This document shows positions 2,681-54,993 of a stretch of DNA of 64,000 nt, one piece after another. The notes beneath the pieces were generated by a model. That model was not told the origin of the DNA. It was given only the letters and a program-made list of their open reading frames with translations, and made no database searches. Source of the DNA: Halichondria panicea (Eukaryota > Porifera > Demospongiae > Suberitida > Halichondriidae); contig NC_087384.1 in NCBI RefSeq assembly GCF_963675165.1, positions 5,945,182-6,009,181 of the forward strand, in the 5' to 3' direction. The translations under genes were made by a program, and so were the position numbers. Position 1 is the stretch's first letter. The number at the start of each line of letters is the position of its first letter.

Positions 2681-3232
2681 AAGTATGTCCAGCCATGCAG
2701 GAATGAATGTTCAGCACTGCTGGAGTTTCTTCTTGCAACCATGCAGGTTTAAAATTGTCCAAGATTCATTTTATTTGTGGAAGATTCTGTGTTCCTAGAC
2801 CTAGTCCTCGACCTCGTGATGCATGTCAATATTCTGCTTCACCGTAGCACTAGAAGTGGCTCTTTTTGCTGGGGACATGAGCTGTTTTGCAGCAGTGTAG
2901 AAGCGAGCTTTCTTGGCTTGGTTATGAGGCCGAGCGTAGACCAGCAGCTAATACATGTATTCACTGAGTAGTGGGGTGGGGCTGTTTCTTTGCAGCAGTA
3001 AGTGGGGCGGGGCTATTTTGCATCACCAGAAGTGGGGTGGGGCTGTTTTGCAGATTTCAGTTGAAACTCCAACAATTTTGTGTCAAGCCATTCGTCGGTC
3101 ATGCCAATCTTATACGCTGCAGATACTGGCGTCTAGAAGAGAGAAGAGATGGAGCTGTGTCTAGAGTTGTCTCTGTCTTTTTTTGTGCTGTTTATAAGGA
3201 CAGTGTTATGTTGCTATGCCCTCGGGATATAA

Positions 3233-3332
3233 ACTAGTTATAACACATGCACTCGGGCTGCATGGCATATATTACACTCAGCTGGCGCCCTCGTGCTTCA
3301 GTGCAATATATTCCATACGTGTTATAACTATA
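3233..3332. repeat. Imperfect inverted repeat
   Basis: 'agttataacac' near 3235 and its complement near 3320-3331 bracket about 75 bp that also contains shorter complementary blocks ('ggcatatatt' against 'aatatattcc'). It looks like an old foldback element. Confidence 0.4.
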
Positions 3333-3898
3333 ACATACAACCTAACAATAACTGGTACGTTCTTTTGTATGAACTATACAGTATACCCATTTTAATATTT
3401 ACGGCTCAGGATAGTGATAGTGATAGTGATGTTGAATGTATTGCGGTAGAATCATCAAAATATATATACCACCATACAAAATAACCCGCTATAATTGTAC
3501 AGTATAATAATAATTATAGTCAGGCCCTCCATTATTCAAAACCTCGATGATCCAGCTTGATCATTTTCTTTGTAATTCAGAAAATGGGCGCGTCCCTTAA
3601 ATGAGCATGCACATTGCAGCCATTACCATGGAGACAGACCTGCTTATCTTCTGCGCCTGATGCACAGACAACCATCAGAGGAGGTATACGACATGCAGGA
3701 GCAATTATATATAGGCTTGATTGATTACACTCTGTTCACATGTATAGGCATATAGGTTTATTAATGTGCTGAGTCAGCTAATCAAGTCGAAAATTGATCG
3801 TACATCTTCTGGACAACCATGCATGCATGCAGTACTACATGCATGCTGCTTTATCAATTAAATGGGTGGAGATCAATTAAGGCGTGATTTATGGACAC

Positions 3899-4020
3899 AA
3901 TAAGTTTCCTGGGGTTTTGGGAATTATGAAGAGATACAAGGATGGTCCCAGGCCACTATGTATATAGACTTCATTGTAAAACATCACGTGAATCATTTCC
4001 ATTTCCAATCCCTCTTTTAC
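3899..4020. repeat. Dispersed repeat shared with 55338-55452
   Basis: About 115 bp align in the same orientation with 55338-55452. Both contain 'gaagagatacaaggatgg' and, further on, 'gtgaatcatttcc'. Both copies lie upstream of a small possible coding exon (4208 and about 55700), so the unit may be a shared promoter-proximal segment or simply a repeat. Confidence 0.65.
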
Positions 4021-4207
4021 TCTATCTATGCTGGAAGGGTGGTTTGTACAAATCCAACGAACTGACCTGGATCCATCCCTGCTAGATCTAGCTTGTTTCA
4101 CTTTGCATATTGTTTTCTGCAATGAAGGAAAGATTATTATTTCCTCAACCTCCTCACCCCCATGCAGAAATGCACCATGGAAAGTCGAGATTATTCAGAT
4201 AAAGGAG

Positions 4208-4366
4208 ATGGGGCAATATCACAAGGAGGGCCTTCAGGCGGTAGAGGTCGGCCTACAATATGTGGGTTACGGACTGTTGATTGTTGGAATCGGCGTTGGC
4301 TTCGGCCTCGTCAGTGTGGCGTTAGGTCTTACTTTGGGTTTAAGATCCAAAAATAGCAATACAAAG
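4208..4366 (+). CDS. Possible small membrane-protein exon (hypothetical)
   Basis: An ATG at 4208 opens a 53-codon frame. It has a short polar head followed by a long glycine-rich hydrophobic stretch with GxxxG-like spacing (residues about 16-46), then a basic RSK end that runs into a plausible splice donor (aaag|gtaaat). The frame is also open upstream to 4028. I do not recognise a family. The hydrophobic helix with a basic flank is what would be expected of a single-pass or hairpin membrane segment. No downstream exon could be placed with confidence; a frame at about 5143-5262 is a weak candidate. It could be chance coding. Confidence 0.3.
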
Positions 4367-6818
4367 GTAAATGTATATAATTATATGTGTTCGTCAAGAC
4401 TGCGATAGGAATGTGTACCCCCTCCGCAGTGTCAATGTGTATACTAAAAACAAACATTCGGCTTTACCTCGTGCATGCAATTATAGAGGCCTTACTATTG
4501 CTTGTCAGACATTTGCACGAATCCGCACTATGAGTTCAGTGTACTGGGCCTGCATGTTTTACCACAATGCATTGCACTTGTAGCATGCTCATGTTAGACC
4601 TCCTCTGATTGCTTGTTGCTCATGCTATTTATCCCATACCGTAGAAACTGGATTATTAGCGCTTACTCGATTATATATATAAGGCCATGCAAAGTCAATT
4701 TGTAGTTTCTCAGGCTATTATATTCCTAAAATAGCAAGCGGATTGAGGCAAATAATAAAATTTATGATATTCATAGTTGAAAACACAATAAGCAGAAGTG
4801 CATAATTTTATACTACAAAAAACCATTTTATTGTTATAATAACTAGCTTGCATTGTCTATAGCTGCCAGGAATCTAGTAGGCAGTTTTTGCCCTGCAGAA
4901 TAGAGGAGATCGCTGGCGTGCTAGCATCATATTCAAAGTATTGTGAGAGAAAGTTTCTACTATAGCTCTGATGCCAGAGAATGATGCTGCAAGCAAAGGT
5001 CAAGTGTCATTCCAGTATTCCAGTAGTCCATTCCACTGATTCAAGACACCCTATGCAAAAAATAAAACATGAATATTGATCATCATAATAATTATATATA
5101 CATGTATAAAGATTTTGTTGATTTTGCACACATTACTGTACACAGACTTGAGCGTTGACGAAGAAGATCTTAACGAGTCAGTGTACATTTTAGCCAAACA
5201 TTTTTCGTATATTAGTAACCCAGCAATTGTTGTTGGGGTGAGCGAAGCGAGTTCCTATACCTAGTCATCAATGTTGAAATTTTGTCTGTCTGTCTGGCCT
5301 TGACCTTATTTTTTACTCAAACTTTTTACCCATGTTACTATTTTATCCATAATTTTGCTTTTTATCACACTGCTTCTCAGTTATGAAGAGCCATGCAGCG
5401 TTACTCATGACAGAAAGTGTGTAAACAGCCTCATTCCTAGACCGATTTTTATTCAACTTCGGAAACTGGGAATTGAGGCTAGTTTAGAGGAGGTATAGGA
5501 CAGGTCTATTTAGGTTGCTAATGAGGGTATATATTTATCGTACAAGGGTCTTAATTGCACATGATATCAGTGTTTACTCACGTGGCAGTGCGACAAGCGA
5601 TTATACAAGCACGTTAGAAGTGAACAGTCTCCAACAGAGCTAGCTAGAGATTGGCTTTGATTGAGTCTACAATATGTCTCAGAAGAGAGATTATGGGTCT
5701 CCAACGGGCCAAACACAACAGCAGCCTCGGAAGAAACCGTCTAGTCACACTTGTACCCCTCTAAACAGACTTTGAGCAAACGACTATAGTGTTTGACCCC
5801 ACCGCATGTTTAGTGCTGACTCTAGCTAGCTGTTAGAGACTGACTTGCTTGTAATCACTATAGCTAATAGCATAGATATTCGAGAAGAGGGATGGGAACC
5901 GCAATCAGATGTGCCCATGTATATACCAGGAAAATATCAATCCATATTACGCCTCAGCAAAGCCCAGGAAATCCGTGGGAAGTCCTTACTAAACCCTCTA
6001 TACACCGCTGATTCTAGTGCATATATTTGTATTCTAACTGGATCACTTGTGTGATGAATGTTACAAGAATATAACGGGACATGTATCTATACCTGTGAAA
6101 ATATATAATCTTAAGGTAATTGGCCTGGAATTGTGGCTACTGTAAGAATAGAATATACAGTAACCACATCTCAGAGAAGTGGAGGCATACAACGGCCGAC
6201 TTTATATGCACCAGCGGGGTCACAAGCCACTATTAAGAGCTTACAGCGCCACATTGAAGAGACTGAAACACGTGAAGTTGAACACAAACGATTGAAGCAA
6301 AATTTTAAATAGTTAGAGAAAGCATGGATTGAGCACTTCCTCTCTCTGCTGCGTAGCCTATTGAAAAAGTGCAGTATATCATTTACCCAGTATCCATTTT
6401 GAAGAAGACTTGAGATAAGAACCTGGCTCTCTTCATGGGAGCTAGCCTGACCCCTCCCAACCTGGCCATATAGTAGTCACAAGGTATACGTACTCTCTGC
6501 TGTGCACCTTATAATATTCCTTTTTTATTATAGCAACACATTTTTGCAATGCAAAAAATTAGCGGTATGCTAATCTGCAACCCGAGAACCAGAAAAATAC
6601 ACGAACATGAACAGTAACACTACATGGTTCTTAAACTCTGGTTCGGCTTAAATTTTGAGATGGAGGATATATCAAAACAGAGAATTCCATTCAGATATTG
6701 TTCTTGGTAGAAAAGTTTTTTCGTGCGAAGGGGAATGATAGCTGGACACTAGCTGTTAGGGTGCCGGTGTTCCTTCTTCATTTCTTCTCAGCTCAAGTGC
6801 TGCTGCATGGGTACTCAC
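4367..6818. other. Intergenic, no gene supported
   Basis: Only short frames without recognisable motifs. The segment near 6119-6140 again shows the 'ggcctggaattgtggct' type sequence seen at the ends of the 6819-6912 hairpin, so it contains at least one decayed relative of that repeat. Confidence 0.4.
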
Positions 6819-42583: not shown

Positions 42584-43346
42584 TAGACTCGCAAGCCACT
42601 CCCTTTTCTCTGATTGGACGGGGGCGGGAGAAAAGGGACTGGTGACTCTGGGACACATTTTGTGTCTCTACCAGAATTTGGGTAGAGATTATTCATTGAT
42701 TTTTCCACGTGATCCAAATATTGCGTGAGGTTAAGTAGAATTGCGTAGCCTGCAAAAGTGATCGCGGGCTTCTTAGCTACAGTTTAAGAATGGATGCTAG
42801 TGCTAGAAAGGAGAAGATGATGGAGTAATAACATCATCAGGCATTCAGCTAGGATATAGTCATCTAAGACACCAGCAGAGATTAGCTTGTTTTAGTTTTA
42901 CGTGATGAGAACTGGCAGCCGAAAGTCATTGGTTGCCTAAAGCTTTTAATAACCTGTACAATACAAGACAGATAATGGCAGACGGCAGCAGTTGAATTGA
43001 GAGTAGTCAGACTTGTACAAGCTGTCTTAAATCGCTGCCACTCCTCGGTTCAAAGAAGGACTGCCAAGATTTCTACGTTCATCAGCTGTTCCATGCTAAT
43101 CCACAAGTTATGGCACAACAGACACTGGTACAAGGATCTATAAAATCAAAAGGCTGGCTAAATAGATCTGTATACTTGTCTCCTGTGTGTCTTTAGCTTT
43201 TGACGCATCAGAATAAATTGGATAATTTGCACGTGACATTAATATTTAATAGCATTCCTGATTTACACAAGCTGTAGCCCAGAGTCACCAGTCCCTTTTC
43301 TCCCGCCCCCGTCCAATCAGAGAAAAGGGAGTGGCTTGCGAGTCTA
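42584..43346. mobile_element. MULE-type MITE: perfect 69-bp TIRs, 9-bp target duplication
   Basis: 42584-42652 and 43278-43346 are exact inverted complements over 69 bp, beginning 'tagactcgcaagccactccc'. The nine bases 'agctggtgg' flank both ends (42575-42583 and 43347-43355). Long TIRs plus a 9-bp duplication are the signature of Mutator-like elements (established knowledge). The 625-bp interior has no convincing coding frame, so it is non-autonomous. The perfect arms and perfect duplication imply recent insertion. Confidence 0.9.
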
Positions 43347-43697
43347 AGCTGGTGGTGGGTCAACTGGGTACCGGTGTCACAGGACACGGCCTCCCCCAGG
43401 ACAGGAGCTCCGGGGGGGGTTTCGTCCTTAGGATAAATCCTCCCCCCGGAGTTTCTGTCCTAGGACAAAAGCTCCTACCCCAGGACCAGAGCTCCCCCAT
43501 TCTGCGGTGCAGGTGAAAGTCAGTCCACAGGTAATCTGAGAGGACTAAGCTAGACTAGGCTACGAAGTAAACAGCCATAGACAAAGCCTAACTAGATGCA
43601 ATAGATGCTGTATCTATTATGTTATAGATCTCAATACTCAATATATACAACAATGCAAGAGAAAGAAGTACAATAAATATAACCAAAAGTGCACAAA

Positions 43698-46613
43698 TCA
43701 TAAAGTGATGCAACCAGAACAAAACCAATTACCTACTGGTTCTTTGCGAATTTTGGCACAGCGATAGTGATACCACTCACTACATTTGTCACACATGACC
43801 ATATCCTCAAAAGAGTCCGGTCTCTTGCACATGCAGTATATTGTAATGGCAATGGTTTGTGGTGTTGGTCTTTTTGGCATCGCTTTCTTTGTGCGAGGGA
43901 ACCGTGAGAGTTTGCCCTTCTCAAAGCACTTAATGAGATGTGCTCTCATTTTGGCCTCATCAAACACTAGAGAATCCACATTATCGTTCATAGCAGCGTG
44001 ATATGCAGCAGCAATGCTAAATAGTCCGCAGTTGTTAGCACCCTCTTGCTGCTGGAGAGCCACCACAGAAATCAACAGCCCATTGCATTGAATTAATGGG
44101 CTATACACTTGTGCTATCTGGAGCTCAGTACTTGGGGAAAGCGTTCCATTGAAGCAGCTGTCGTACAAATACAGTTCACCCTTAAACAGAGAAGTGGCAA
44201 TCCAGTGCTGTTGTTCTTCAACAAAGAAGATTTGCACAGCTGCATGTGTACAAGTAAAATTATCATAATTACATAAACGTTGTGTTACCTGGGCCTTGAT
44301 TATTGGAAACTGGTGGAAATGCCTTTAATTGGGCCAAGAGAGTATTATAGCAGCCTTCAAACTTAAGGAATTGCATCGATAATAACTGGTGGGCTGCGCG
44401 CATATGCTTGTCGGAGAGCATACCACCTATTGCACTCAACACGTTTAGATCTAGGGTCTTTCAGCCACATAGTTCCCTATAATTATATACACAGAAGTCT
44501 AAGAATTGTACAAGATATATACACAGCTTATACAGAATATTCTACCAAGAAAATAGACATGTTATGATAATTATATATTATTACCTGACTCTTTTGTTTA
44601 TTCCTAGGAGGTGACTTGCAAGGATCTTTTGTGTCAAGAGGACGCTTATCACGCTTATCTTGCTTTTGAGAGGGTATAGGTCAGGCTTTTGAGAGGGTAG
44701 GTCAGGTTTTTGAGAGGGTACATCAGGTTTTTGAGAGGGTACATCAGGCTTTTGAGAGGGTAGGTCAGGCTTTTGAGAGGGTAGGTCAGGCTTTTGAGAG
44801 GGTGCATCAGGCTTTTGAGAGGGTAGGTCAGGCTTTTGAGAGGGTAGGTCAGGCTTTTGAGAGGGTGCATCAGGCTTTTGAGAGGGTAGGTCAGGCTTTT
44901 GAGAGGGTGCATCAGGCTTTTGAGAGGGTAGGTCAGGATTTTAAGAGGGTACGTCAGGCATTCGTTTATTCTTAGGTGATTTGACTGGAGAAGAGTGGTT
45001 GTCTTCAGAGCCAGGAAGAGTGTTTTCTTCATCGTTGGTTTCTGTAAAATGTTTTAAGCATAATTATATAGCAAGGAACACGACAGAAGGAGGTTATTGC
45101 TAGCCACACTTTACCTGGAGAGTAGTATTCCTTTAGCAGTACCCCATTGTAACACTTTTTCAATACTTTGCCGCTCCCAGACTGCAACTCGTATCTACCC
45201 TTGTCAAGGATCTTATGGACAATATATGAACCTTTCCAGGTGCAGTCCATTTTCCCTCCCATTCGATGAGAATTGGCCATATTCTTTAGCATGACACTGC
45301 TGCCAACTGGATAACTCTACGACAAAAATGGCAAAAAAATAAGCTAAAGTTTGCTATATAAAATAATACCTTCAAAGAGTTATGCTTGTTGTCATACTGC
45401 TGCTTCTGTTTTTGCTGTGCAGCATGCAGCAATGTTCTCCTTGGCATTGAGGTGACAGCGGTCACGAATTTCCATCAACCTTCGGAGAATTCCATCCATG
45501 TCTTCTCCGTCTTCTTCATCTTCAGTCTCCTCTCCACTCAATTGGTCAGCAGCTCCTCTATCTTCTATAGCGTCGGCACCATCTCGTTGATCCATATCAA
45601 AAGTAACAGCTTTCCACGGGTGGCGATTGAACATTAGGAAAAAGGGTGTGTACTTTGATGACGCCTACAATCAAAAAATAATATATGCATGCATGATATA
45701 ATAATTAAAATTTTACCTGTTTTGATATGCGATAGGCATAAAGAGCAGCAGAGAGATGCTGATCCCAGTCATCAGTACTAGAATCGATTACCTTCTTGAG
45801 AGTGTTCACTAGAGTCTGGTTGAAGCGTTCATCAAGGCCATTTGTTTGTGGGTGGTAAGCACTTGATACGCAGTGCTGTATGTCAGTCAACTGAAAAAGT
45901 CGGGTGTTGATTTCGTTGACAAACTCTCTTCCTTGGTCTGATTGAATCACTTTTGGCCACCCATGCCTGCAAAATGTGTCAAACAGAAATTTTGCTACAC
46001 CTTCTGCTGATTTTGATGGGAGTGGGGCAGCCTCAGGCCACTTAGAGAAATAGTCTGAGAGGGTGATAATGTACTTGTTTCCAGAGCTCGTTTCAGGTAG
46101 AGGTCCTACCAAGTCAATACCAACTCTGTACCAGACCTTTGTCACAGGGATGGGGTGTAGTTCTGCTCTGGGTTTCTGCAGTTGGTGATTCGTTCGTTGG
46201 CATTTGTCGCAGTGCTTGCAGAGCTGTATGACGTCAGCATGTAGGCCTTTCCAGTAGAAATCCTGAGCAACCTACATGCATGAAACAGATATAATTATAC
46301 TTTATGATGATAAATATACCTTTTCATAGGTCTTGTCTCTCCCAAAATGCATCCCATCCAGTCCATCGTGGCACATGTTTAGTATCCTGCTTTTCTCCTC
46401 TTGCTTCACCACAACTCTTCTCATTCTATGCATGCCAGTGCTGTCCTTCTCAGGCAGGTATAAACATTGTTGCTGCAGAGCATATCTTTGAGCTTTGTCT
46501 CTTATACTTATCTTGTCATTAGTGGAAAGCCCGTCTCTGTATTTCTTCTGGCCAGCATTGCTGGCAGCAGTCTTGTACAGCAGTATGTCCTCATACTCTT
46601 GTTGAGTAGCCAT
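43698..46613 (-). pseudogene. Ginger1 transposase: H2C2 finger, DDE integrase, Ulp1 protease, PHD finger; broken
   Basis: Minus-strand exons: 46613-46320, 46271-45717, 45664-45370, 45316-45115, 45041-44585, about 44457-44289, 44239-43698. In order: an HHCC zinc finger (HDGLDGMH ... CKHCDKC); an integrase core with Asp in GIDLVGPLPE, Asp in VIQSDQGREF and Glu in NGLDERFN, 35 residues after the second Asp; a GPY/F-type module (WKGSYIVHKILDKGRYEL); a low-complexity linker of repeated PDLPSQK heptads; a Ulp1/C48 protease with QQHWIA (His), LYDSC (Asp) and QEGANNCGLF (Gln, Cys); and a C-terminal PHD finger (C-M-C ... MCDKCSEWYHYRC ... WFCSGC). Three lesions are visible: a 7-bp duplication that shifts frame near 45419-45432, a CAA-to-TAA stop in the linker at 44943-44941, and a 2-bp insertion near 44675-44678. 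The copy therefore probably makes no full-length transposase. Confidence 0.88.
44668..44950 (-). repeat. 21-bp coding minisatellite in the Ginger linker
   Basis: About 13 tandem 21-bp units; in the transposase frame each reads PD[LAV]PSQK. Both a stop and a 2-bp insertion fall inside it, as expected of slippage-prone sequence. An open frame reading TYPLKSL here is a shifted frame. Confidence 0.88.
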
Positions 46614-46911
46614 TCTGATTGCTAACAGTCTATACATTTCACATGCACGCGCACGCTTATTATACTAAAGCCTTGACAGGTTTTGACAGGGTACATATGT
46701 ACCCGGATGATATATCCTGGGGGCGGGGATTCTGTCCTAGGACGAAACCACCGGGGAGGCATTGTCCTAAGACCGCAGGCTCTGGGGGAGAAACTGTCGC
46801 CCGGAGGTTCTATCCTATGACACCGGGTGTCGGGAAACTGGCATCTGCCATCAGAGCGCTACTTATCCGGAGTTCTGTAACTCACAGTATGCACTGCTCG
46901 GTGTGGTGTAC

Positions 46912-50770: not shown

Positions 50771-51697
50771 CTAAAGTTCAGTTTCTGGAGCTACTACTGT
50801 TCTGTACTTGTGTTCTCCACATGTACACCTAGCTATTTGTGTTCCAGTCAACCGACTAAAATTAAATTTTTCCAATGCATGTGATTTTCTTCCAAAGTAC
50901 ACACCTATAGCAATGCAGACTGGAAGAGTGATCACTATCAATGGGGCAACTACTAATCCAGTGCATCCAAACCCAAATCCAATCAAACCGCCAATTACAG
51001 CCGCCCCTGTTTTGTCTTTTTTAACAATCTTCTTAGGTTTATTTAGCTTTTCAACACACAAAGACTTGAAGGCTACTACCCAATTTGGTATATCTAACAG
51101 TTGAAGATTATCGTAGTAACCAACTGGAATAAACAATATCTTTTCGGCACTTCGTCGCTTCACACCTATACTTGAAATCAAACATTTTCTGACACATGAC
51201 TCCCACTGTTGAACTTCGTTCTTAAATGCTTCCTGCTTTTGTTCAAATGTGAATCTTTTCCATTGAGGTCGTTGAATCTCCAAGTTATTAGCAAACGTTA
51301 AAGCAATGATAGCGTTCTCCCAAATGGTTTTCCCCAATTTGCTTGTCAATAATTCCATAGCTACAACTCCAGGGCTTTCTTCGGTAAAGCGGGTGTCTGT
51401 ACACTTCAAACAAAATATAACTAAGTCTTGGCAAGAAATCTTTTCTTGTATTTCCATCAAATGATGCTCTTTGTTGTTTGAGCCACTAAGAAGACCAGGA
51501 GTATCCCAAATCATACAGTTAGTACCATTTAAATTGCAGGTCTTGGGGACTATTTCAGTCGTGTTTACGCTGGATATGTCGCATCCCTCCTGCAATCGCT
51601 CATTAATGAGTGTATTGATCAAGGCAGATTTCCCACTTCCAGTAACACCGGCCACCAAAATATTGCACAATGAACGATCTTCAAGCTCAAACTCCAT
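50771..51697 (-). CDS. AIG1-type GTPase (GIMAP/Toc34-like), single exon
   Basis: 308 residues. P-loop GVTGSGKS at 17-24, then a Thr region (VNTTEIVPKT), G3 WDTPGLL, and a G4 position reading LTFANN rather than the usual N/T-K-x-D, as often in AIG1 GTPases. A glycine-rich hydrophobic hairpin near the C-terminus (about 230-270, GGLIGFGFGCTGLVVAPLIV...) predicts membrane anchoring. AIG1-family GTPases act at endomembranes and in immune or survival functions in plants and animals; the role here is unknown. Start at 51697 is the first Met before the P-loop. It is divergent from the next AIG1 gene (254 bp between start codons), and a decayed copy of it lies at 53258-53735. Confidence 0.85.
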   Translation of the reverse strand: MEFELEDRSLCNILVAGVTGSGKSALINTLINERLQEGCDISSVNTTEIVPKTCNLNGTNCMIWDTPGLLSGSNNKEHHLMEIQEKISCQDLVIFCLKCTDTRFTEESPGVVAMELLTSKLGKTIWENAIIALTFANNLEIQRPQWKRFTFEQKQEAFKNEVQQWESCVRKCLISSIGVKRRSAEKILFIPVGYYDNLQLLDIPNWVVAFKSLCVEKLNKPKKIVKKDKTGAAVIGGLIGFGFGCTGLVVAPLIVITLPVCIAIGVYFGRKSHALEKFNFSRLTGTQIARCTCGEHKYRTVVAPETEL

Positions 51698-51950: not shown

Positions 51951-53105
51951 ATGGCAGAAGGACAAGGACCCTCCCCACCATTAGATGGGAATAATGTAGA
52001 TCTAAGTGATAGTTGCCGGGTAATGCCAAATGACTTGGACGACTCGATAATAGAACAGGGTGAAATTCAGCAATTACTAACTGCAGATAAAGTTCCACCT
52101 GAATTAAAAGAAATTGACCCATCAAATATCAAACATTTGTATGACAACTGCCGAGACATTCATATTGTCATGACTGGAGTAACAGGATCAGGGAAATCAG
52201 CGATTGCAAATGCACTTCTTGGAAATTCGAAGGAGACCTCGGATATGTTTGCGGAGGGAAGTTATCTTGATCCCTGTACACAAGAGGTTGCTGGCAAGAA
52301 ATCAAGACGGAATCACAAGATAAAGCTGACTGTGTGGGATTCACCAGGACTCAAAGATGGCACTAGTAAGAAACATCAGAAACAATATCTAAAAGAGGTA
52401 GCTGGTGTTATGAGCGTGTACGGGTACGATTTAAGCATTCACTGCATCAAAGCAGATACTCGATTTGTTGATGGTGAAGACAACGGGTCTGTACAAGCAA
52501 TGAAAATATTGACAAAGAAATACGGTAGCAAGTTCTGGGAAAAGACAGTAATTGTTCTCACTTTTGCGGATGTCATCGAATCGTTTAACCCAGAATGGAA
52601 AAGGCTTGGAGAAGAAGAAAAGATCGTTGAGTTTCACAAACAAGTTTTGAAATACGACCATCAAATCAGAAAAAATTTGGAGGAATGTGCAAAAGTTAAA
52701 AAAGAGATTGTGAATCAAATCCGAATAATTCCTGCTGGTCACTATTCAGAACCAAAGCTTCTCGATCGAAGCTACTGGCTCTCTACCCTTTGGTTTCAAT
52801 GTCTTGATACCATCCCAACTTTAGACGCTAAAGCTTCTCTCGTGCGTTATCATCAAGATAGACTTGTTGAAGAAGATCCTTTCCAGAACCCTGAAAATTG
52901 CAACATTACATTAGATGTTTCTTTTGTTCCTCGAGATTTTCTACGGTTTAAACGAAAGTGGGCAATAATTGGAGCAGGATTCGGTGCATTTGGAGTGTTT
53001 TTGGCATTAATAACCATACCTTTAGGCTACTGGGGAGGTGGTAAATGGGGTCAAAAGAAATACATCATTAAAAACTGCCGCATCCAAAGACAGTTACCGT
53101 GTTAA
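51951..53105 (+). CDS. AIG1-like GTPase, copy B1
   Basis: 384 residues, single exon. After an acidic N-terminal region of about 65 residues come the P-loop GVTGSGKSAIANALLG, a Thr-containing switch region (CTQEVAGKKSRRNHK), G3 WDSPGLKDGT, LTFAD at the G4 position, and a C-terminal hydrophobic segment IIGAGFGAFGVFLALITIPLGYWGGG followed by a basic tail. A membrane-associated regulatory GTPase is the likely product. It is clearly paralogous to the gene at 53896-54993; long blocks are identical. The C-terminal membrane segment is also shared in style with the divergent neighbour. Confidence 0.85.
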   Translation: MAEGQGPSPPLDGNNVDLSDSCRVMPNDLDDSIIEQGEIQQLLTADKVPPELKEIDPSNIKHLYDNCRDIHIVMTGVTGSGKSAIANALLGNSKETSDMFAEGSYLDPCTQEVAGKKSRRNHKIKLTVWDSPGLKDGTSKKHQKQYLKEVAGVMSVYGYDLSIHCIKADTRFVDGEDNGSVQAMKILTKKYGSKFWEKTVIVLTFADVIESFNPEWKRLGEEEKIVEFHKQVLKYDHQIRKNLEECAKVKKEIVNQIRIIPAGHYSEPKLLDRSYWLSTLWFQCLDTIPTLDAKASLVRYHQDRLVEEDPFQNPENCNITLDVSFVPRDFLRFKRKWAIIGAGFGAFGVFLALITIPLGYWGGGKWGQKKYIIKNCRIQRQLPC

Positions 53106-53735: not shown

Positions 53736-53895
53736 ATAGATCTAGAGTTCATTTACCCTAGGTAATTTTTAATCTTATTATTGTGGAATGTAGCATCACA
53801 TGATTCTTAGATCTTTGTAATGATTATTAAAAGACCTAGATACTCCTACACCAATAGTCAACTTGATTCCAAAAGTAGATCTATATACGACTGAA

Positions 53896-54993
53896 ATGGC
53901 AGAAGGACCCTCCCCGAATGACTCGGACGACTCAATAATAGAACAGGGTGCAATTCAGCAATTACTAAGTGCAGATAGAATTCCACCTGAATTAAAAAAT
54001 GTTGACCCATCAAAAATCAAACATTTGTATGACAACTGCCGAGACATTCATATTGTCATGACTGGAGTAACAGGATCAGGGAAATCATCGCTTGCCAATG
54101 CACTTCTTGGAAATTCGAGTGAAACCTCGGATATGTTTGTGGAGGGAAGTGATCTTGATCCCTGTACACAAGAGGTTACTGGCAAGAAATCAAGACGGAA
54201 TCACAAGATAAAGCTGACTGTGTGGGATTCACCAGGACTCAAAGATGGCACTAGTAAGAAACATCAGAAACAATATCTAAAAGAGGTAGCTGGTGTTATG
54301 AGGGTGTATGGGTACGATTTAAGTATTCACTGCATCAAAGCAGATACTCGATTTGTTGATGGTGAAGACAACGGGCCTGTACAAGCAATGAAAATATTGA
54401 CAAAGAAATACGGTAGCGAGTTCTGGAAAAAGACAGTAATTGTTCTCACTTTTGCGGATGTCATCGAATTGATTAACCCAGAATGGAAAAGGCTTAGAGA
54501 AGAAGAAAAGATTGTTGAGTTTCACAAACAAGTTTTGAAATACGACTATCAAATCAGAAAAAATTTGGAGGAATGTGCAAAAGTTAAAAAAGAGATTGTG
54601 AATCAAATCCGAATAGTTCCTGCTGGTCACTATTCAGATCCAAAACTTCTCGATCGAAGCTACTGGCTCTCTACCCTTTGGTTTCAATGTCTTGATACCA
54701 TTCCAACTTTAGACGGTAAAGCTTCTCTCATGCGTTATCATCAAGATAGATTTGTTGAAGAAAAAGATTCCCCTGAAAAGTGCAGCATTAAATTAGATGT
54801 TCCCTTTGTTCCTCGAGATTTTCTGGAGTTTAAACAAAAGTGTGCAAGAATTGGAGCAGGAATAGGTGCGTTTGGATTGTTTTTCGCGTTAATAACCGTA
54901 CCTTTAGGCTACTGGAAAGGTAGTACATGGGGTGAAAAAGAGTTCATTGCTGAACACTGTCGCATTGAAAGACAGTGTGAGTCACAGTGTTAA
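53896..54993 (+). CDS. AIG1-like GTPase, copy B2
   Basis: 365 residues from the Met at 53896 (MAEGPSP), which matches the start of copy B1; an in-frame ATG at 53863 would add 11 residues absent in B1. Same landmarks as B1: GVTGSGKSSLANALLG, WDSPGLKDGT, LTFAD and the C-terminal hydrophobic segment (GAGIGAFGLFFALITVPLGYW). Differences from B1 are mostly single-base and conservative, with short deletions in the N-terminal acidic region and near residue 300. The frame is fully open, so both copies look functional. Confidence 0.85.
   Translation: MAEGPSPNDSDDSIIEQGAIQQLLSADRIPPELKNVDPSKIKHLYDNCRDIHIVMTGVTGSGKSSLANALLGNSSETSDMFVEGSDLDPCTQEVTGKKSRRNHKIKLTVWDSPGLKDGTSKKHQKQYLKEVAGVMRVYGYDLSIHCIKADTRFVDGEDNGPVQAMKILTKKYGSEFWKKTVIVLTFADVIELINPEWKRLREEEKIVEFHKQVLKYDYQIRKNLEECAKVKKEIVNQIRIVPAGHYSDPKLLDRSYWLSTLWFQCLDTIPTLDGKASLMRYHQDRFVEEKDSPEKCSIKLDVPFVPRDFLEFKQKCARIGAGIGAFGLFFALITVPLGYWKGSTWGEKEFIAEHCRIERQCESQC

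Follow-up and report, generated by a model that had tools for sequence, protein, structure and literature searches.

A very probable Ginger1 DNA transposon with a decayed coding frame, and its relatives, in the genome of the sponge Halichondria panicea

A gene-like stretch of Halichondria panicea contig NC_087384.1 combines a retroviral-type integrase with the inverted ends of a DNA transposon, and so raises the question of what kind of mobile element it is and whether it can still make its own enzyme. In the window, that is, the whole stretch of 64,000 nucleotides that was analysed, we conclude that it is almost certainly a Ginger1 DNA transposon copy that has decayed. Membership of Ginger1 is assigned by features, because the integrase tree compared integrases of this genome and held no named Ginger1 or Ginger2 sequence. 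The Ginger1 reading was that of the original prediction, and it is supported here by the borders, the CCGG duplication, the order of the domains, the family of copies and an empty site of one deletion copy.

The element, a member of what we call family A, occupies positions 43375..46822 (3448 bp), with its gene on the minus strand and its reading frame broken. It is flanked by target-site duplications of CCGG at 43371..43374 and 46823..46826, which were placed from the sequence and from the borders of other copies, and the outer limits of 43371..46826 given in the original prediction are exact to the base. The left terminal inverted repeat (43375..43485, plus strand) starts with TGTCACAGGA at 43375, and the right one (46715..46822, minus strand) stops with TCCTATGACA at 46822. 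End-to-end alignment shows that these predicted TG...CA ends of about 110 bp do pair, imperfectly, with 77 of 113 aligned columns identical (68%) and a score of 74, far above the best of 39 in 500 shuffles. The termini begin TGTCA, which fits the Ginger1 description of inverted ends that are about 40-270 bp long and start with TGTNR, and the 4-bp duplication of that description, CCGG (or CCGT/ACGG), occurs in 27 of 28 two-ended copies of family A. To call the ends intact was thus right, but the term does not extend to the coding frame of this copy.

A search of the genome itself (131 Mb in 39 contigs) returned 93 matching pieces, which were grouped by hand. Family A comprises at least 41 elements including the window copy, a lower bound because 40 of 82 candidates were scored, and the other 40 elements were examined together with their flanks. 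A pattern search gave 43 two-ended matches, from which 15 internal matches of 100 bp or less were dropped to leave 28; 27 of these are flanked by CCGG on both sides, and the remaining one, L024, by CTGG and CCGG. Among 11 one-ended copies, ten have CCGG and one (L018) has CCGT; this class includes L021, which extends to within 7 bases of the other end and lacks the terminal bases and CCGG there. Two copies, L026 and L039, have neither end. L045 and L046 have both flanks in common and may be one duplicated insertion, so that the CCGG/CCGG copies represent at most 26 separate insertions; L012 and L043 have the same 5' flank. Further copies, which the original prediction had proposed to seek, therefore exist, and the 28 two-ended ones carry the same two inverted ends rather than different borders.

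The transposase gene is read on the minus strand as seven exons and six introns with a product of about 800 residues. The introns lie at common positions in the aligned copies and have GT-AG boundaries; the few exceptions come mainly from copies that are truncated or rearranged. From alignment of copies, splicing and Pfam, exon 1 (46320..46637) contains an N-terminal motif region and the start of an H2C2 zinc finger, and exon 2 (45717..46271; Pfam, PDB profile, splicing) the remainder of the finger and the D,D35E integrase core. Exon 3 (45370..45664), 295 nt here and 291 in most copies, carries the integrase end and an acidic stretch, and exon 4 (45115..45316; copy comparison, PDB profile) the GPY/F module. 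Splicing and tandem-repeat analysis place a PDLPSQK-type repeat linker in exon 5 (44585..45041), within which a 21-bp tandem array of 14.1 copies spans 44662..44959 on the same strand. Exon 6 (44289..44476), 188 nt here and 202 in many other copies, begins a Ulp1-like protease, and exon 7 (43698..44239; Pfam, PDB profile) holds the Ulp1-like catalytic residues, a C-terminal PHD finger and the stop codon. In L040 and L041, which are 0.53% apart, exon 2 is 846 nt long instead of 555, an excess of 291 nt.

In the window copy the frame ends at codon 381, so this copy cannot encode a complete transposase, and any movement would depend on enzyme from another copy. Early termination was found in 22 of 23 spliced two-ended copies of family A (in L009 at codon 583). 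The single exception, L024, is open through the end of the PHD finger over 783 codons; its exon 6 is 72 nt shorter than in most copies and a serine replaces one PHD cysteine. Of the one-ended copies, L014 is open to codon 798 and L020 to codon 760; L019, without a normal exon 1, has an open frame that starts at exon 2.

Fourteen family A copies have in common a 1077-bp deletion, and 12 of them are two-ended; one member of this class, L033, has the same 3' flank as L032 and may be a duplicate. The median mismatch among the 12 two-ended deletion copies is 0.54%, against 1.46% among the 11 longer two-ended copies. We considered and rejected the possibility that the deletion class is a shortened autonomous element: the deletion begins in the GPY/F exon and reaches the protease exon, and each of the 12 copies that were spliced terminates early, eight of them at codon 181. 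This broken form has spread to different sites, most likely with enzyme supplied by other copies.

The integrase assignment of the original prediction holds in each of its parts. The rve domain scores above the Pfam cut-off in the window copy, the H2C2 finger scores 25.0 against a cut-off of 25.5 with a profile match that ends at the start of an intron, and 35 residues separate the second D from the E when counted on the sequence. The best PDB match of the integrase is Ty3 (E 3.6e-24), and a second, weak stretch of this match covers GPY/F; the integrases of Ty3 and PFV top the PDB matches of the core. In the predicted GPY/F-like module, sister copies, L009 and L020 among them, have KGPYIV and the window copy has KGSYIV. 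In the YPYY region, which lies upstream of the finger and was compared by eye, family A has KYR and LYL, and families B and C (described below) have EYP and LYY; neither the P nor the final Y of the motif is evident in family A.

These features bear on the choice among integrase-type DNA transposons. An origin from Ginger2/Tdd or from another eukaryotic superfamily of this type (IS3EU/GingerRoot, IS481EU) is suggested by the TG..CA ends and short duplications that several such groups have. According to the available text of Bao et al. (PMC2836005), however, Ginger2 lacks GPY/F and has the AT-rich target RTATAY, and in the accessible part of a later account (PMC10045372) IS3EU has TA..TA termini and duplications usually of 6 bp, and the duplications of GingerRoot are 6 bp long, whereas the element described here has sister copies with GPY and a CCGG target; we therefore regard such an origin as very unlikely.

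A second alternative is that only the integrase end of a Gypsy LTR retrotransposon is left at this locus. It would account for the best PDB match being Ty3 and for an identity of 28-42% between the window integrase and 16 of 17 Gypsy-like integrases of the same genome (23.5% to the remaining one), a label that rests on an rve match plus, for many, a long open frame. Against it, 28 copies have the same inverted ends and 27 of them a 4-bp duplication, those ends are inverted rather than direct and lie at constant borders, and no reverse transcriptase match was detected with Pfam in the six reading frames scanned. A tree of 235 columns, built from four Ginger-like integrases (families A-D) and the 17 Gypsy-like ones, all from this genome, placed A-D in one clade with support of 100/100 and within none of the Gypsy-like lineages, so the integrase does not fall inside a Gypsy-like lineage of this genome. 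The tree gives no order between that clade and the Gypsy-like lineages, and L069 and L064 form long branches. It agrees with the finding, in the available text of Bao et al. (PMC2836005), that no Gypsy lineage groups with Ginger1 or Ginger2 at significant support. A Gypsy remnant is, in our judgement, extremely improbable, and the empty site described next weighs against it as well.

An empty site with a single CCGG, which the original prediction had proposed to look for, was found for one copy, L035, a deletion derivative inserted on contig C11 within a gene-like cluster whose similar units all lie on one strand. This cluster (C11:940133-1293366) has more than 30 such units over about 350 kb. 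The query consisted of the two L035 flanks joined with one CCGG (296 bases), and 34 sister places match across the junction over 287-296 of the 296 bases, 31 of them over the full length; two further places cross it over shorter stretches. Two of the 34 are 100% identical to the query and therefore have a single CCGG, a statement limited to these two. The filled place matches the query only as halves, 1-151 and 146-296. The insertion can be dated only loosely because such clusters can homogenise.

For the window copy, no empty site was found among the 40 places scored out of 545 candidates. Its 5' flank, at least over the 122 bp to the left of the element (window 43225-43346), belongs to a high-copy repeat with those 545 candidate copies, 40 of them scored. 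Elsewhere in the window lie three related frames (50771-51697, minus strand; 51951-53105 and 53863-54993, plus strand), which by eye resemble AIG1/GIMAP-type GTPases with a C-terminal membrane stretch. The joined-flank search found no clean empty site for L045/L046: over about 100-174 of that query, many ends of family C match across the junction, mostly at 89-97%, and are about 3 bases shorter at that point. Of two longer matches, one covers 100-292 at 91% and the other 1-292 at 78%. Insertions of family A or B (L024, L076/L077 and L045/L046) abut or sit in apparent terminal sequence of family C (CCGGTGTCATAAAATTTT...). Two adjoining Ginger ends together form the palindrome TGACACCGGTGTCA, which may itself be a favoured target.

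A third possibility, a host gene domesticated from Ginger1 in the manner of GIN1, has the multi-exon structure and the open frame of L024 (one of 23 spliced copies) in its favour. It is hardly credible, since there are 41 copies, almost all of the 28 two-ended ones have flanks of their own with CCGG, 22 of the 23 spliced frames are broken, and empty sites exist.

The Ginger1 transposon of the window has relatives in three further families of the same genome. In the integrase core, family B (L049) is 59% identical to family A, family C (L050) 55% and family D (L068) 51%. Family B has 20 integrase matches at 95-99%, and among ten copies examined nine have equal duplications (seven CCGG, including L088, whose ends were read by eye, one ACGG and one CCCA) and one has unequal ones. 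The one family C copy examined has CCGG on either side. In family D, where the look covered reading frames only, neither ends nor Ulp1 nor PHD were seen.

The Ulp1 protease proposed in the original prediction finds support through a relative and a weak profile match. Pfam did not detect a protease in family A or B, and a family C homologue, 45% identical, scores 27.0 for C48 against a cut-off of 20.7. The protease profile has SENP1 as its top PDB match, at a weak E of 0.031, with the catalytic H, D, Q and C aligned; across four related protease sequences the catalytic D, Q and C fall in one column and the H is one place off in one row. For family A, the sequence thus weakly suggests a Ulp1 protease.

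The PHD finger is above the Pfam cut-off in the window copy, and its best PDB matches are Spp1 and YNG2 (E 1.3e-9 and weaker), followed by ING proteins. The PHD fingers of Spp1, YNG2 and ING read H3K4me3, and some PHD fingers among the PDB matches, such as that of BAZ2B, read unmodified H3. The YCxC, MVxCD and W residues align with the Spp1, YNG2 and ING fingers, and the Y, M and W that we take to be the cage residues of ING2 are aligned and present. The finger of the window family thus resembles H3K4me3 readers, and binding to this mark is a prediction. The original prediction could not place it in the described Ginger1 architecture and treated it as an addition, which is wrong: Ginger1-9_HM is annotated 'Ulp1, PHD' in Table 1 of Bao et al. 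(2010, PMC2836005), so that the PHD finger belongs to that architecture. The present element is a new member of Ginger1, not a kind of its own.

The available text of Bao et al. (PMC2836005) makes no mention of the repeat linker. All three families examined (A, B and C) have a proline-rich tandem-repeat linker between GPY/F and Ulp1, with a 21-bp unit of PDLPSQK type in 14.1 copies in the window copy, a 24-bp unit of KPDVPSSH/KPAAPSSH type in 14.5 copies in L049, and a 24-bp unit of PPERDDQQ type in 9.8 copies in L050. Position and proline-rich repeat nature are kept and the unit differs by family, a pattern that may be new. In the family A copies compared, exon 5 is between 269 and 483 nt long, a range that leaves out L023 (219 nt), in which a deletion cuts this exon.

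A Ulp1-PHD frame was also seen at L051 (C9:1839900-1844900), where two minus-strand frames, at 481-1299 and 2854-4479, place it downstream of a pogo-like transposase frame with DDE_1 and HTH_psq matches. This Ulp1-PHD frame is 35% identical to that of the window family, with C48 at E 0.17, below the cut-off, and five further Ulp1-PHD copies in the genome are 38-39% identical. If L051 is a single element, as it may be, the Ulp1-PHD module would reach into another superfamily.

Outside CCGG there may be a weak preference for TAC, which may be new. Read outward from CCGG on either side, TAC occurs in 10 of 54 family A flanks and in 4 of 200 background flanks (p 4.5e-5, uncorrected for the many comparisons). 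TAC was tested after the position counts had been viewed, and the flanks include related ones, L012 and L043 having one in common. In family B it occurs in 3 of 18 flanks, too few to confirm a preference. Targeting of CpG-rich DNA was also considered: at 100, 200, 500 and 1000 bp, the surroundings of 27 insertion sites (26 for 1000 bp) had nearly the same GC content and CpG ratio as those of 35 CCGG sites in the window. This was a simple comparison of means, in which the largest gap, at 100 bp, was a CpG ratio of 0.63 at insertions against 0.55. There is no clear difference, and the comparison bears neither for nor against H3K4me3 targeting.

If the enzyme follows retroviral-type integrase chemistry, the spliced transposase of about 800 residues would hold both inverted ends through H2C2 and GPY/F, the D,D35E core would attach the 3' ends to both strands of CCGG at points 4 bases apart, and the gaps, once filled by host repair, would become the duplicated CCGG. 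More speculatively, the Ulp1-like domain might remove SUMO or a related tag from host proteins that act in repair or silencing, and the PHD finger might hold the complex at H3K4me3 chromatin. A role for Ulp1 in repair was suggested by Bao et al. (PMC2836005), in whose available text the way in which Ginger1 is cut out is described as unknown. As a tentative idea with a smallish chance of being right, the Ginger1 transposases of this genome might aim their insertions, the PHD finger reading H3K4me3, the integrase picking the palindrome GTA-CCGG-TAC, which is longer than CCGG, and the fast-changing, proline-rich linker, rebuilt from other units in each family, setting the reach from the integrase to Ulp1-PHD.

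In 2010 Ginger1 was found in four animal species, according to the available text of Bao et al. (PMC2836005), and our search of the literature, within the parts of sources at hand, found nothing on a sponge Ginger1. The present work adds a genome in which several Ginger1 families occur; one of them, family B, has about 20 near-identical copies. This near-identical family and the clean L035 empty site together make the sponge a usable system for Ginger1 questions, such as how an integrase-type enzyme leaves its old site and whether the PHD finger steers insertion; the linker and the young family B are of modest value.

Among known systems, Ginger1-9_HM of Hydra is like the window element in its Ulp1 and PHD C-terminus, its introns and the CCGG-type target of its group, a likeness by description only and drawn from the available part of Bao et al. 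(PMC2836005). Ginger1-9_HM is 3,758 bp long, with inverted ends of 120 bp and two introns, whereas the window element has 3,448 bp, ends of about 110 bp and six introns; in Table 1 of that paper the largest number of introns is four, which six would exceed. The OTU-bearing Ginger1 elements (Ginger1-1_HM and others), as described in the accessible text, share the integrase modules, ends and target and have OTU where the window element has Ulp1. Ty3/Gypsy integrases have the same order of H2C2 and D,D35E, but the window element differs from Ty3/Gypsy in lacking LTRs and a detected reverse transcriptase and in having the inverted ends of a DNA transposon, a protease and a PHD finger. Spp1, YNG2 and ING, the closest matches of that finger, are subunits of chromatin complexes and not transposases, unlike the protein that carries it here.
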